Shown one piece after another: positions 39,749-63,325 of a stretch of 64,000 nt of DNA. The position numbers and the translations under genes were made by a program. The notes below the pieces were generated by a model, which was given only the letters and a program-made list of their open reading frames with translations, searched no databases and was not told the origin of the DNA. Location: contig NZ_CP046977.1 in the NCBI RefSeq assembly GCF_030408455.1, positions 1,550,001 through 1,614,000 of the forward strand, given 5' to 3'. Position 1 is the stretch's first letter. Each line of letters starts with the position of its first letter. The stretch is from Corynebacterium atrinae. Its GTDB lineage: Bacteria > Actinomycetota > Actinomycetes > Mycobacteriales > Mycobacteriaceae.

Positions 39749-40356
39749 GAAACATCCCACTCGGTGTCTACGTCCCCGGCCACACCCTCATTCACCGGGT
39801 CCCAGCTGGCGCCAAATTCGTCGCTCTTCTCATCTACATCCTAGCCACTACCATCCTGGTGAAAACCTGGCCCCTCGCCCTCGCCTGCGTAGCTGTTGTC
39901 GCCATTTTGTACGTGATCGCCCGAATCCCACTTCGCCTAACCATCCAACAAACCGCTCCAGTCCTGCCAGTTCTGCTGGTACTGGGCGCCTTTCAATGGT
40001 GGCAGCGTGGCTGGGAGTTCGCCGCCGTCACGGTACTTACCCTGCTTTCTTCAGTGGCCGCGGCGGCTCTGCTCACGCTCACCACCACCATCGCCGAACT
40101 CATGAGCGCCATCGAACACGGCCTCGCCCCTTTTGCCCGCTTCGGCCTACCAGTTGAAACTATCTCCCTGGCTGTTTCCCTCACCATTCGGCTCATCCCA
40201 CTTCAGTTGGCAACCGTCACGGAGGTGCTCGCGGCGCGGAAAGCTCGCGGAGCTGGGTTTTCGATAGCTGCCTTCGGCACGCCGGTCCTGGTGCGTTCCA
40301 TTCGTCGCGCCCGTTTGCTCGCCGAGGCACTCATCGCACGCGGCGTCGCCGACTGA
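39745..40356 (+). CDS. bioN: Biotin ECF transporter T component BioN
   Basis: Transmembrane coupling subunit of 203 aa with about five helices. The two cytoplasmic coupling motifs of the CbiQ family appear as AARKARGAGF near residue 165 and IRRARLLAEALIARGV at the end. GTG 39745 overlaps the bioM stop. It completes the bioYMN operon under the BioQ-type site. Confidence 0.93.
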   Translation: MRNIPLGVYVPGHTLIHRVPAGAKFVALLIYILATTILVKTWPLALACVAVVAILYVIARIPLRLTIQQTAPVLPVLLVLGAFQWWQRGWEFAAVTVLTLLSSVAAAALLTLTTTIAELMSAIEHGLAPFARFGLPVETISLAVSLTIRLIPLQLATVTEVLAARKARGAGFSIAAFGTPVLVRSIRRARLLAEALIARGVAD

Positions 40357-40492
40357 TCGCGACGGGCTGATCCCGACCGGAACGCTCGCAGAACGCCTTC
40401 CACCGGGTGAAAACCCAGGTCGCCATCCAGCAGACCCAGTTCAGGTCGCGATCACGAGCAATAGAAAAGCGACCCCACACCACATAAGGCAT
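40331..40492 (-). CDS. Possible small Trp-rich protein, 53 aa
   Basis: An open frame of 53 codons from ATG 40492 to TGA at 40331, antisense to the last 26 bp of bioN. The product is basic and aromatic, with a run DLNWVCWMATWVFTRWKAF at residues 17-35 and a tail SRRRRVR. It has six tryptophans and two cysteines, and its third codon positions look biased to G or C as in real genes. No strong ribosome-binding site is seen, and a hairpin overlaps the start. It may be a real small protein downstream of pspA, or chance. Confidence 0.35.
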   Translation of the reverse strand: MPYVVWGRFSIARDRDLNWVCWMATWVFTRWKAFCERSGRDQPVAISRRRRVR

Positions 40493-59700: not shown

Positions 59701-60594
59701 ATGACTGATGCACTAGCCAGCTCGGGGCTCGTCGTGGTGGACAAGCCAGCCGGGATGACCTCCCACGATGTCGTGGCCCGCCTCCGCCGGATCTTCTCCA
59801 CTCGCCGGGTCGGCCACGCCGGGACGCTCGATCCCATGGCCACCGGCGTGCTGGTCGTCGGCATCGAACGAGGCACCAAGTTCCTCGCCCACCTCGTTGC
59901 CACCACGAAATCTTATGACGCCACCATTCGCCTCGGCGCGTCGACGACGACCGATGACGCCGAGGGTGAGGTGCTGAGTGAGGCTGGGGCGGCGTCGATA
60001 AGCAATGACGACGTGCTCGCCGCCATGGCGGCGCTGACCGGCGACATCATGCAGCGGCCCGCGTCCGTGAGCGCCATCAAGATCGATGGCAAGCGCGCGC
60101 ACGAGCGCGTCCGAGCCGGTGAGGAGATCGACATTCCGGCCCGCCCTGTCGCCGTCAGCCGCTTCGAGGCACTTGCTTATCGACGTCCCGCTGACTACCT
60201 CGACATCGACGTCACCGTCGATTGTTCCTCCGGCACCTACATCCGTTCGCTTGCCCGCGATCTCGGGGAAGCGCTCGGCGTCGGCGGGCACCTCACCGCC
60301 CTCCGACGAACAGAGGTCGGCCCGTTCCAGTTGAGTGATGCGCTAACGCTCGACGAGCTGGAAGCCTCCCCCCGACTCTCGCTCAGCCTTGACGACGCCC
60401 TCGCCCGCTCCTACCCGGTCCTCCACGTCAGCGAGGAGGAGGCGGCCGCCCTGGCCATGGGCAAATGGCTCGAACCCCGCGGGCTCTCCGGCACCCACGC
60501 GGCTGTCGCCCCCGACGGACGTTCCATTGCGCTGATTAGGGAAAAGGGTAAACGCCTGGCCACCGTGTTCGTGGCCCGCCCGAGCACTATCTGA
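59701..60594 (+). CDS. truB: tRNA pseudouridine-55 synthase TruB
   Basis: Forms pseudouridine 55 in all elongator tRNAs. The protein is 297 aa. The catalytic Asp44 is in RRVGHAGTLDPMATGVL, the start region has VVDKPAGMTSHDVV, and SGTYIRSLARDLG follows. A PUA-like C-terminal segment is present. ATG 59701 sits only 29 bp from the ribF start and may be leaderless. The 3' end overlaps the endonuclease-like gene by 8 bp on the other strand. Confidence 0.95.
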   Translation: MTDALASSGLVVVDKPAGMTSHDVVARLRRIFSTRRVGHAGTLDPMATGVLVVGIERGTKFLAHLVATTKSYDATIRLGASTTTDDAEGEVLSEAGAASISNDDVLAAMAALTGDIMQRPASVSAIKIDGKRAHERVRAGEEIDIPARPVAVSRFEALAYRRPADYLDIDVTVDCSSGTYIRSLARDLGEALGVGGHLTALRRTEVGPFQLSDALTLDELEASPRLSLSLDDALARSYPVLHVSEEEAAALAMGKWLEPRGLSGTHAAVAPDGRSIALIREKGKRLATVFVARPSTI

Positions 60595-61525
60595 GCGCTC
60601 GAAGCAGCATCTGGATAAAGCGGCTGTGGTCCCCGTTGCTTGCGGCCAAGTCTGCCCACGTCACATGGATGCGAGGGATACCGGCATTCGTCAACGCGCG
60701 ATCCCTCTCCCGATCCTTTCTCATCTGCTCCCGCGGCTCGACCCCCGTCGTGGCCCCGTCGTACTTCTGCTCCCCGTCGGTTTCCACCACAAGATACCCA
60801 TTGACCAGCAAGTCTCCCCGGTAACGTCCGCCCAATAGTTTGGGTTGTACCTCGATGCTCGTGACCTCCGGAAGGTCGACCAACAGGATCTGCGCCCGAG
60901 CCCACGACTCCGCCGGGCTCTCCGCCCGCCCATCCGCCAGCTCCAGCGCCCTGATCGCCCGCGAGCGAAACTTCATCCGCCCCAAGCCATCCAGGTGCTG
61001 CATTGCCACGGGCTTGGTGATCTGATCCATCCGCAAAATCGCGTCAAAAGCCAGAATCCCATCCGCAACCCCCTCGAATCGCGCCAGGTCGGCAGCCGTC
61101 CGGATTAAGCGCGTGACCCTGACCCCCGCCTCCTCGACGATGTGCTCATCCCACAGTTGCGTGTAGCGATACACCACTCCTCTCGGCCACTGAGCCTGCC
61201 GGGGAGCCCTCGACGCGCCCGGCAAACACAATTCCACCGGAGCATTCCTGCCCAGCACCGGCAACCCATGAAGTCTCGCCGCCGACTTACCCACCACCAC
61301 TGCCCTTCTCGCCCCTAAGCCCACCGCAAATGCCCTGATCGCTTCCCTGTCCCACCAGGTAAAACTCTCGAATGCCTCCGCGGGGACTGCGATTTCCGGG
61401 CATAGGGCGATAAACCTCCCCTGCGCCAGCTCCCTCGTGAACTTCGGTGTACCCGCCCGCGCGCTCCGCAGCTTGATGAACTCGATCTCTTGGCGCCAAT
61501 CCCGCATACCCGAAGTATTTGTCAT
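60587..61525 (-). CDS. Endonuclease-domain protein (DUF559/Vsr-like)
   Basis: Protein of 312 aa. The C-terminal third looks like a PD-(D/E)xK nuclease of the DUF559/Vsr type: SPAESWAR (acid near residue 200), YRGDLLVNGYLVVETDGEQKYD (the D and the E-x-D pair) and DRERDRALTNAGIPRIHVTW. The N-terminal part has an ARRAVVVGKSAARLHGLPVL segment typical of AbiEi-like antitoxin folds. This architecture is common in actinobacterial genomes, usually alone and with unknown function. The alternative start ATG 61507 is possible. It is followed upstream by the hairpin repeats. Confidence 0.75.
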   Translation of the reverse strand: MTNTSGMRDWRQEIEFIKLRSARAGTPKFTRELAQGRFIALCPEIAVPAEAFESFTWWDREAIRAFAVGLGARRAVVVGKSAARLHGLPVLGRNAPVELCLPGASRAPRQAQWPRGVVYRYTQLWDEHIVEEAGVRVTRLIRTAADLARFEGVADGILAFDAILRMDQITKPVAMQHLDGLGRMKFRSRAIRALELADGRAESPAESWARAQILLVDLPEVTSIEVQPKLLGGRYRGDLLVNGYLVVETDGEQKYDGATTGVEPREQMRKDRERDRALTNAGIPRIHVTWADLAASNGDHSRFIQMLLRALR

Positions 61526-61607
61526 CGAGGGCAGGCGTGGCAGAGTGCTAGGGCTTGGGCTGTGTAGAAGCCCTGATGTGAGTGGGGGTTATCCACAGGA
61601 GTGTTCC

Positions 61608-61705
61608 GGAAAGTGCAATTCGACTTGACCAATTCCACTTCACCCATTAATCGAGTACCCCTCGTCCCCTACTCGATTAATGGGTGAACTCAGATCGCAC
61701 TTTCC
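61608..61705. repeat. Long hairpin element, copy 1 (98 bp)
   Basis: The element begins GGAAAGTGC and ends with the inverse GCACTTTCC. The inside holds 19-base arms from 61639 (TTCACCCATTAATCGAGTA) to 61688 (TACTCGATTAATGGGTGAA) that pair perfectly around CCCCTCGTCCCC. It shares almost all bases with copy 2. It is not coding, lies after the 5' end of the endonuclease-like gene, and is too long for a simple terminator. Confidence 0.85.
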
Positions 61706-61756
61706 CACCGCGGGCTCTGCGGACGCCTCAACCTTGCGCACTGACCAGGCTCACCC

Positions 61757-61853
61757 AAAAGTGCAATTCGACTTCACCAATTCCACTTCACTCATTAACC
61801 GAGTACCCCTCGTCCCCCACTCGATTAATGAGTGAACTCAGATCGCACTTTCC
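61757..61853. repeat. Long hairpin element, copy 2 (97 bp)
   Basis: Second copy in the same orientation. Arms are 61787-61805 and 61818-61836. Compared with copy 1, one stem pair changed from C-G to T-A on both arms (position 6), which keeps the pairing; two other changes give C-A and A-C mismatches. It ends 4 bp before the pptT stop, so it could also stop that transcript. Confidence 0.85.
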
Positions 61854-61857
61854 GAAC

Positions 61858-62523
61858 TCAGGCGCCCGCGATCACCGCGGTCGTCGCGACGACGTACCCG
61901 TCGCGGATGACCCAGCGACCTTCGATGAAAGGCACCGGTGTGGGGCGGACGAGTAGGTAGGAGATGAAGGTACCGTCGTCGCGCAGATCGATTTCCGCCT
62001 GTTCGAACCCGAGCCAGCGGTGGGTCATGGGGAACCACGCCTTATAGGTCGCTTCTTTTGCGCAGAAGAGGAGGCGGTCGGCGCAGTCGATGCCGTTGAC
62101 GGCGAGGCGTTCGAGTTGGGCCATTTCACCGGGGCGAGCGATGGAACTGACGACTTCGCAGGGGAGGGGTTCGGCGGGTTCGGCATCGAGGCCCATGGAG
62201 CGGACATGAGTTTGGGGGGCGACCACTGCCCCGCGGAATCCCTCGGTATGGGTCATGGAGCCAGTGATGTGCGGCGGCCAGAGTGGCATGCCGCGTTCGC
62301 CGCGGAGGATGGGTTCGGCTTCGCCGAGGCCAAGGTTCCGTAGAGCCTGATGGGCGCACCAACGAGCATCACCGAATTCGGCTTTGCGCAGGTCAACGGA
62401 GTGAAAGACGAGGGCTTGCTCCAGGGGATGGAGGCCTTGGAAGTTCTGCAGGTCGGGGCGCTCGCGGTCGGTGATGACGTAGCAGAACTTGGCGGAGTCG
62501 GGGAAGAGAGAGGAATCAAGCAT
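61858..62523 (-). CDS. pptT: 4'-phosphopantetheinyl transferase (PptT-like)
   Basis: Activates acyl and peptidyl carrier proteins by adding phosphopantetheine, as needed for mycolic acid synthesis. The protein is 221 aa. The magnesium-binding pair is in GLDAEPAEPL, and the second signature is CAKEATYKAWFP. ATG 62523 overlaps the end of the metallophosphoesterase gene; GTG 62532 and TTG 62535 are also in frame. The hairpin element lies 4 bp after its stop. Confidence 0.92.
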   Translation of the reverse strand: MLDSSLFPDSAKFCYVITDRERPDLQNFQGLHPLEQALVFHSVDLRKAEFGDARWCAHQALRNLGLGEAEPILRGERGMPLWPPHITGSMTHTEGFRGAVVAPQTHVRSMGLDAEPAEPLPCEVVSSIARPGEMAQLERLAVNGIDCADRLLFCAKEATYKAWFPMTHRWLGFEQAEIDLRDDGTFISYLLVRPTPVPFIEGRWVIRDGYVVATTAVIAGA

Positions 62524-63325
62524 CGTTCTCACCAACCGTCATTACTGGGTAAGGCCAAGCATTGAGGTGGCCGTGGCGTTCCCATTCGCGCGGGTAGCCG
62601 AGGGAGACCTCGATGTGGGGGATGCCATCGACGAGGCGTTCTCCAGGCATGTGGAGGTGCCCGTATATGACCGCTTGAGCTTTGTAGCGCTCCGGCCAGG
62701 TGCGGGTATGGCGGGTGCCGCACCACAGTCCGATCTCGGAAATGCGCATGTCCAGGGTGGGATCTTGGACGAGGGGCCAGTGGTTGATCAGGATGGTCGG
62801 GCCGTCGATACGCGAGAGGCGTTTGATGGAATACGCCAGTCGGTCCCAGCACCAGGCACGAATGTCGACGAAGGGGGCGATGGCGAACTCGTCGGTCATC
62901 ATGATCTGTTTTGCCCGTGCGGCGTCGATGGCTTGCTCGACGGTGAGGCCGGGTCGGCGGAAACTGTAGTCATACAGGGTAAACAGCGGAACAATTGTCA
63001 CTCCGTTGAAAACCGGGTAGGGGTCTTCCGGGGTGAAGATGTCAAGGGCGCGGCAGCCTTCCACCAGTTCGGTGTACTTGTCGCGCCCTTGAAAGCGTTC
63101 GGTAGAGCGGGAGAAGAGTTCGTGGTTGCCGGGCACCCAGATCACCTGGGCGAACCGGGAACGGAGTTGTTTAAGGATCCGGAGGACGAGGTCCGTGCGT
63201 TCTGCCACGTCGCCGGCGACGATGAGCCAGTCGGAAGGGTCGGCCGGTTGGATTTCGTCGATGCGAACCGCATTCGCTTTGACGGCTGCGTGTAAGTCGC
63301 TGACGGCCCACAATGTGGTGCTCAC
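62516..63325 (-). CDS. Metallophosphoesterase
   Basis: Calcineurin-type phosphoesterase of 269 aa. Metal ligands are in AVSDLHAAV, IVAGDVAERT, VPGNHELFS, ILINHWPL and IYGHLHMPG, the five usual blocks. GTG 63325 is preferred over GTG 63334 because AAGGAGG lies 8 bp before it. It overlaps pptT, an arrangement also seen in other mycolata where the esterase precedes PptT. The substrate is unknown; mycobacterial PptH removes phosphopantetheine from carrier proteins and is encoded next to pptT, which fits well. Confidence 0.88.
   Translation of the reverse strand: MSTTLWAVSDLHAAVKANAVRIDEIQPADPSDWLIVAGDVAERTDLVLRILKQLRSRFAQVIWVPGNHELFSRSTERFQGRDKYTELVEGCRALDIFTPEDPYPVFNGVTIVPLFTLYDYSFRRPGLTVEQAIDAARAKQIMMTDEFAIAPFVDIRAWCWDRLAYSIKRLSRIDGPTILINHWPLVQDPTLDMRISEIGLWCGTRHTRTWPERYKAQAVIYGHLHMPGERLVDGIPHIEVSLGYPREWERHGHLNAWPYPVMTVGENDA

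Follow-up and report, generated by a model that had tools for sequence, protein, structure and literature searches.

The window analyzed here, a stretch of 64,000 nt, carries two tandem copies of a multi-copy palindrome whose tie to a nuclease-type gene family is well supported. The palindrome is likely the protein's own site, and it is probable that it represents the cognate site of the neighboring AbiEi-like nuclease-type protein and has spread in the manner of REP sequences. That the predicted nuclease drives this spread is a good but unproved hypothesis. The features of the locus are as follows.

61608..61705, no strand assigned: palindromic element copy 1 (72.5 bits against the covariance model R1, itself one of the 20 copies from which R1 was built)
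61758..61853, no strand assigned: palindromic element copy 2 (66 bits against R1, also within the model)
61589..61597, plus strand: TTATCCACA, a DnaA-box-like 9-mer between the palindrome and the gene start
60587..61525, minus strand: gene for an AbiEi-like protein of 312 aa (306 aa in P0001), from a family with a Vsr/MTES_1575-type nuclease signature
59701..60594, plus strand: truB-like gene, a neighbor (name read from the sequence)
61858..62535, minus strand: phosphopantetheinyl transferase (PPTase) gene (Pfam 4PPT_N, ACPS), a neighbor and not part of the element, its 3' end bordering copy 2

The two tandem palindromes of about 97 bp reported in the initial annotation are both present as described, and a direct repeat of 106 nt at 61610 and 61758 (148 nt between starts) is 92% identical. 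Copy 1 has a 94-bp core at 61610–61703; its left arm comprises 61610–61623, an extra 14-bp unit at 61624–61637, and 61638–61656, followed by the spacer at 61657–61670 and a right arm formed by 61671–61689 and 61690–61703. Copy 2 has its core at 61758–61851 and its spacer at 61805–61818. The inner 19-base stem pairs at 19/19 positions in copy 1, copy 2 displays an arm pair of 18 nt with 94% complementarity, and the two further uncompensated changes that had been claimed are found in copy 2. The compensated change seen previously also stands: at stem position 6, copy 1 has C-G and copy 2 has T-A. Both window copies are of the long form, with a core of 94 bp versus 80 bp, and the extra 14-bp unit in one arm offsets the outer ends from the inner stem; because of this 14-nt offset, a hairpin scan with 28-nt arms overlooked them. 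Folding of 61590–61870 as RNA gave −92.5 kcal/mol (z −7.67), an energy that 0 of 200 shuffles reached, and thus the window hairpins are beyond chance.

A BLAST search with copy 1 against its own genome (G000, chromosome of 2.72 Mb), as the initial annotation had suggested, returned 45 matches at E ≤ 10, which reduce to 20 places in 19 loci once opposite-strand and short matches are merged. Eighteen of the places are clear and two are weak (39 kb and 2327 kb); places whose best match was no better than E 0.8 were left out of this count, and a place at 1826 kb was inspected and contained no copy. With 18 copies outside the window, the idea of a repeated palindromic element with a REP- or MITE-like distribution was borne out, and the element is more than a local duplication of a terminator. 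The copies measure 80 bp in 15 cases and 94 bp in five, all five of the latter carrying one extra 14-bp unit in either the left or the right arm. At the 18 loci beyond the window, no ORF of at least 80 aa with coding-like third-position GC runs across the element, and four flanking ORFs overlap the elements there by 1 to about 20 bp. Plasmid and phage collections contained no match to the element, a genome contig collection lacked an exact 21-mer from it, and Rfam 15 gave no match over the gathering score in the window.

Comparison with the close relative G169 disclosed turnover of this family (family 1). Fourteen of the 19 loci were comparable, of which eight keep the element and six are without it in G169; the other five had no full-length match in the G169 stretches taken. 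Either gain or loss could account for these six sites, whose junctions are not clean. At one family-1 locus, about 8.6 kb in G169 (L195, 3353–11926) separates flanks that lie close together in G000, with the element retained at one end of that stretch.

All copies follow one plan: an outer 14-bp unit, in the long form an extra 14-bp unit, an inner 19-bp unit, a 14-nt spacer, and then the mirrored order. The same plan appears with different letters in G102 (CCCCAATTCGA...) and with GGGTATTCGAG... in G139, G019, and G225, and in G121 the sequence ATGCCCGCCAAGAG recurs every 14 bp. Of 45 copies from G000, G169, G102, G019, G139, and G225, all but one have a 14-nt spacer (44 copies: 41 counted; L182, L190, and L193 anchored on the outer motif and read by eye), the exception being L185 with 15 nt. 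The spacer measures 24–25 nt in 4/4 copies of G121 and G095, exceeding the shorter class by about one DNA helical turn. Pairwise identity among 18 copies was 0.355 in the spacer versus 0.785 in the arms. A spacer of fixed length and free sequence, together with a class longer by one helical turn, fits proteins bound to double-stranded DNA better than an RNA loop.

The palindromes lie approximately 83 bp 5' of the start of the AbiEi-like gene, a linked gene that the initial annotation had missed. PADLOC matched AbiEi to residues 71–153 of the window protein (E 2.3e-5); the protein itself had no match in Pfam or NCBIfam, falling below the PF18741 model, and a PDB profile search returned one chance-level match (E 0.46). 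Among 18 homologs, four matched the MTES_1575 Vsr-type REase domain (PF18741, best E 2.8e-4), three AbiEi_4 (PF13338), and one DUF559, and P0002 is annotated by a source as a DUF559 domain protein. The E, Q, D, ExxG, and KY positions do not vary among the 18 homologs and hardly vary among 10 divergent ones, L285 departing; we take these to be the catalytic residues of a Vsr-type or PD-(D/E)XK nuclease. A literature search found nothing on DUF559 with AbiEi, and nothing evidently related on DUF559 with palindromes, subscription papers being mostly outside the search.

No DUF1814 toxin gene was found adjoining the AbiEi-like gene, whose neighbors are the PPTase gene and the truB-like gene; the latter overlaps it tail to tail by 8 bp (60587–60594). 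We compared 75 named loci with PPTase and truB-like genes. In 67 of them the two genes lie within 500 nt with no homolog between, and a homolog is placed between them in four (L052, L053, L055, and L056). L052 has a palindrome of its clade's type between the PPTase and truB-like genes, and that of L053 is degenerate, its fold being no more stable than those of shuffles (z −0.80). L055 and L056, from C. hylobatis and C. lemuris, each have a long palindrome on the downstream side of the PPTase gene, next to a homolog 49–50% identical; the palindrome is unrelated in sequence and, by eye, likewise shows a 14-bp repeat.

The association of palindrome and gene extends well beyond the window. A palindrome was present within 350 bp at 35 of 48 Corynebacterium homolog loci and 15 of 23 loci in other genera, compared with one of 45 PPTase control genes, nearly all from Corynebacterium (Fisher p of 1e-13 and 2e-8, respectively). 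The scan used 20-nt arms with at least 17 pairs and a span of up to about 111, and was fixed after the element copies and L052–L056 had been seen, with the 350-bp limit fixed after the first scan results. Loci were the best matches of homolog searches: 54 in Corynebacterium minus four duplicates or halves and two at contig ends, and 24 in other genera (L271–L294) with one dropped; as some are orthologs at one and the same locus and the six genomes with orthologs may be related, the counts are not independent. By subset, 22 of 28 Corynebacterium loci from the first search and 13 of 20 later ones (L250–L270) have a palindrome. The hairpin background was 0.076 per kb over 1.36 Mb, or approximately 0.05 per gene. 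At this threshold 13 of the 48 Corynebacterium loci and eight of the 23 others showed no palindrome, including L227 of G000, and some of the palindromes counted in either set may be terminators.

Arm self-identity near Corynebacterium homologs at a lag of 14 was 0.414, versus 0.22–0.29 at 19 other lags (6–25), and 95 background hairpins gave 0.277 at lag 14. The other genera displayed no lag-14 peak (0.292). Their palindromes are often shorter, G+C-rich, and without a 14-bp repeat, and some of them may be terminators.

Matches to R1, which was built from the 20 copies and served to find copies, occurred in 8 of 242 Corynebacterium genomes (E ≤ 0.001, strict filters, at most 19 candidates scored in each). 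Six of the 242 genomes, every one of them belonging to these eight, encode homologs of at least 60% identity; homologs at E ≤ 1e-40 occur in 34. The single R1 match of G095 is not near any homolog among the matches listed. In G169 the protein is 89% identical and six orthologous palindromes are 77–94% alike in their arms. Between clades at 61–63% protein identity, six same-locus pairs were 0.59–0.62 alike, versus 0.57 for cross-clade pairs generally, and for copies at different loci the likeness reached 0.81 within G000 and 0.79 in a pooled set from G139 and G019 (six copies, two out of register being left out). Sites that occupy the same locus in different clades thus conform to the sequence of their own clade. 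Read by eye, the palindrome next to one G121 homolog (L235) belongs to the type seen in that genome's dispersed copies.

G000 encodes three homologs, and flanking by a palindrome combined with scatter across the genome was found for two of them. The window gene pairs with family 1 and its 20 copies. For the homolog at 2371737, the palindrome stands 179 bp from the match on the 3' side and belongs to a second family, which occupies 21 distinct places in G000 (E ≤ 1e-3) and 13 in G169 (E ≤ 1e-5), with weaker ones beyond; ten copies that were read have near-perfect ends of approximately 19 bp and a conserved interior. The third homolog, at 2011588, lacks a palindrome that passes the scan threshold (L227). 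About 157–221 bp upstream of it, TGATCGCGAC occurs twice without a mismatch and once as a diverged inverse (L245, 3112–3176). A third dispersed family is built from this 10-mer, and a search for pairs of it 14 bp apart gave 30 matches in G000 and 42 in G169, with none for a reversed control. The link of the third homolog to family 3 is only suggestive, because the two-unit pattern has no match at that homolog itself and was chosen after the motif had been noticed in the flanks.

Two further observations concern families 2 and 3. A likely family-3 copy is located in the window at 40354–40454, after the end of a BioN-type transporter-like ORF and before a PspA-like ORF (names by eye), with TGATCGCGAC and TGATCCCGAC 14 bp apart and an inverse 10-mer about 70 bp further on. 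Families 2 and 3 repeatedly adjoin in a composite-like manner (near 70.6, 264.9, 388.3, 1144.6, 1356.0, 1522.4, and 2294.9 kb of G000), and family 3 also occurs at steps of approximately 105 bp (1654 and 1981 kb).

The position of the palindromes bears on the alternative that best survives, a plain autoregulatory operator, in which the AbiEi-like part represses its own gene and the nuclease has no part in any spread. Among Corynebacterium homologs, 31 palindromes lie on the 5' side, 27 of them at 59–177 bp from the match start, as would be expected of an operator, and AbiEi and Rv2827c are described as autoregulating through inverted repeats (PMC7319586). The dispersed copies would then reflect ordinary duplication or a regulon; extended left flanks are common to L008, L009, L014, and L024 (by eye), which indicates that these copies were duplicated together with flanking DNA. 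Against this, 14 of the 45 Corynebacterium palindromes are 3' of the gene, with palindromes on both sides at seven loci, and at L251, L252, and L253 the same or a similar palindrome flanks the gene on both sides. In other genera nine palindromes are 5' and ten 3', with both sides occupied at four loci. An operator alone would not predict the 20 and 21 dispersed places of families 1 and 2, the turnover, or the likeness across loci. We regard this operator account, taken as a whole, as unlikely.

MITEs are short, gene-less, dispersed elements with inverted ends, and the element here resembles them in all these respects. It could accordingly be the MITE of an unlinked transposase, its linkage to the nuclease gene being a by-product of intergenic insertion; multiple copies, palindromic ends, a patchy presence in eight of 242 genomes, and the near-perfect ends and conserved interior of family 2 agree with this. 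The element ends read by eye as CCAAAAGTGC, GGGGTATTCG, or AAACCCCAATTCG. All 16 exact matches to the end motif in G000 fall within the ends of the short elements, so that no parent transposon with the same ends appeared among these exact matches. Of the empty sites in G169, the two cleanest (L024/L199 and L015/L204) have diverged flanks, and by eye no target-site duplication was visible there. Unlike a MITE, the element showed no parent or target duplication where looked for, and its core is fixed in length and free in sequence. The linkage to one gene family is far above the control, and a search restricted to the Y1 transposase family (PF01797) found none in six of eight genomes, namely G000, G169, G102, G201 (= G139), G202 (= G225), and G203, with matches in G204 and G205. 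A RAYT was consequently rejected as mobilizer in G000. Y1 transposase matches are present in the C. hylobatis and C. lemuris genomes that hold L055 and L056. Taken together, these results make a MITE improbable.

A transcribed RNA hairpin, acting as a bidirectional terminator or RNA-processing site, is about equally improbable, and here the pairing itself can be weighed. The fold is strong, several copies have AAAAG...CTTTT ends, and several lie between convergent ORFs (L003, L004, L009, and L019 among them). For the 18 G000 copies that remained after two recent duplicates were dropped, arms of the same copy agreed at 27.4 of 33 positions versus 25.9 of 33 for arms of different copies (permutation p = 0.0008), with 26.7 versus 25.0 in G169 (10 copies, p = 0.019). 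The excess was not significant in G102, G019, and G139 (six, four, and four copies), two of these sets holding out-of-register copies; L185, L191, and L193 were cut out of register, which depresses the own-arm values of G019 and G139. In the 33-pair structure, 86.7% of cells pair versus 83.9% when shuffled, and pairs changed on both sides number 13 versus 9.2.

The tie between the arms of one copy is therefore real and small, and it leaves room for selection on a hairpin. The initial annotation held that pairing had been kept through compensation. The C-G/T-A pair itself stands, and over the 20 copies the claim is weakly supported: at the corresponding positions (A2 columns 35/74) we counted CG in 11 copies, UA in two, UG in one, and no pair in six, so that three of nine departures from CG still pair. 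Most of the palindromy consists of two half-sites of one shared motif. The arms of one copy agree with each other barely better than with those of other copies, a result that favors double-stranded half-sites over an RNA hairpin, and on the pair counts and arm permutation the RNA reading of the element was set aside. Other features also disagree with an RNA hairpin or terminator. L009, L010, and L015 directly follow ordinary-looking intrinsic terminators (by eye), the 94-bp copies have an unpaired 14-nt unit in one arm, and the spacer is either 14 nt or about one helical turn more. For the stem and T-run of an intrinsic terminator the picture is mixed: the inner stem is A+T-rich, short T-runs occur in the G000 copies, and the GGGTATTCGAG-ended copies of G019, G139, and G225 have none. 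A terminator scan of 61400–62000, admitting loops of 3–8 only, found none.

The 9-mer at 61589 recurs at related genes. Either TTATCCACA or a one-mismatch form is present within 300 bp upstream of 31 of 50 Corynebacterium homologs (L215–L270), in both orientations in 14 of the 31, compared with five of 50 downstream regions, 135 of 3000 random windows, and two of 63 PPTase upstream regions. In other genera the numbers are eight of 23 upstream and none of 23 downstream. Six such 9-mers lie in the first 6 kb of the chromosome and six near its end, around ORFs read by eye as dnaA and dnaN; given these neighbors, we take them to be DnaA boxes. The spread of the copies over the chromosome and these 9-mers could suggest chromosome-organizing or replication-linked sites read by a host protein, a highly improbable reading given that the element was undetected in 234 of 242 genomes (E ≤ 0.001, strict filters), that two or three unrelated families occupy one genome, and that the 9-mers belong to the upstream region of the gene.

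Under the preferred reading, a cognate site of the AbiEi-like nuclease-type protein, each 14-bp arm unit would be the half-site of one monomer, an assignment made by analogy with the inverted-repeat binding of AbiEi and Rv2827c. Two to three units per arm would face each other over the 14-bp spacer, of which the length would matter and the sequence would not, and the protein assembly would sit symmetrically over it. Copies adjacent to the gene may serve as operator of the AbiEi-like gene, and the remaining 18 would be dispersed gene-less repeats that stand to this gene as REPs do to RAYTs. A predicted action at the spacer is suggested by the nuclease signature and by a spacer of fixed length and free sequence, and the copies could have spread through copying, through conversion, or by being duplicated along with their flanks. 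The copy number, the architecture, the palindrome–gene linkage, the co-divergence, and the within-clade likeness across loci were observed directly; that the protein binds the palindrome, acts as a nuclease at the spacer, regulates its own gene, and drives the copying is inferred.

More tentatively, and with more doubt than confidence, the palindrome and gene might belong to a class-wide two-component repeat system of Actinomycetia, unrecognized so far, composed of an AbiEi-like Vsr-type nuclease and half-site arrays. The nuclease would be expressed from a promoter with DnaA-box-like sites, would read the half-site arrays (14-bp units in Corynebacterium), act on the free spacer, and copy or convert palindromes into intergenic sites. 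If true, such a system would be an analogue of REP-RAYT that arose with an unrelated enzyme. To our knowledge, REP-RAYT and IS-MITE are essentially the only pairs in which a bacterial palindromic repeat has so far been matched to its cognate enzyme. An uncharacterized actinobacterial protein family gains a concrete DNA partner, many homologs having their own candidate site, and the function of AbiEi-like/DUF559 proteins becomes directly testable through binding and cleavage assays with sites swapped among paralogs. The diverged protein–site pairs also form a natural set with the order half-site, fixed spacer, half-site.

Three known systems resemble parts of this arrangement. The Vsr-family MTES_1575 domain (PF18741) is shared through the four of 18 homologs that match it; in the system described, that REase domain sits in giant proteins with HEPN, transglutaminase, and helicase domains, whereas here it would belong to a protein of approximately 300 aa with an AbiEi-like part (PMC3710099). 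AbiEi and Rv2827c bind inverted repeats that precede their genes, the spacers measuring 3 and 13 bp (PMC7319586). The present system is alike in its AbiEi-like protein, in inverted repeats upstream of the gene, and in two spacer lengths about 10 bp apart (3/13 there, 14/24–25 here); it differs in units of 14 bp versus 23 bp, in the nuclease signature of the homologs, in lacking a DUF1814 neighbor, and in its dispersed copies.

The third system, REP-RAYT, differs in several respects. The enzyme here is not of the Y1/PF01797 type, and by eye no GT(A/G)G head as in REPs stands beside the palindromes. The element is 80–94 bp with iterated 14-bp arms and a 14-nt spacer, whereas a REP is a short palindrome, with 37–427 perfect copies reported for Stenotrophomonas compared with approximately 20 copies here (PMC2817692). 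In both systems, palindromes flank a nuclease-type gene, are scattered intergenically, vary from lineage to lineage, and diverge with the linked protein, and families 2 and 3 stand side by side here as REPs do in composite arrays (PMC2817692).
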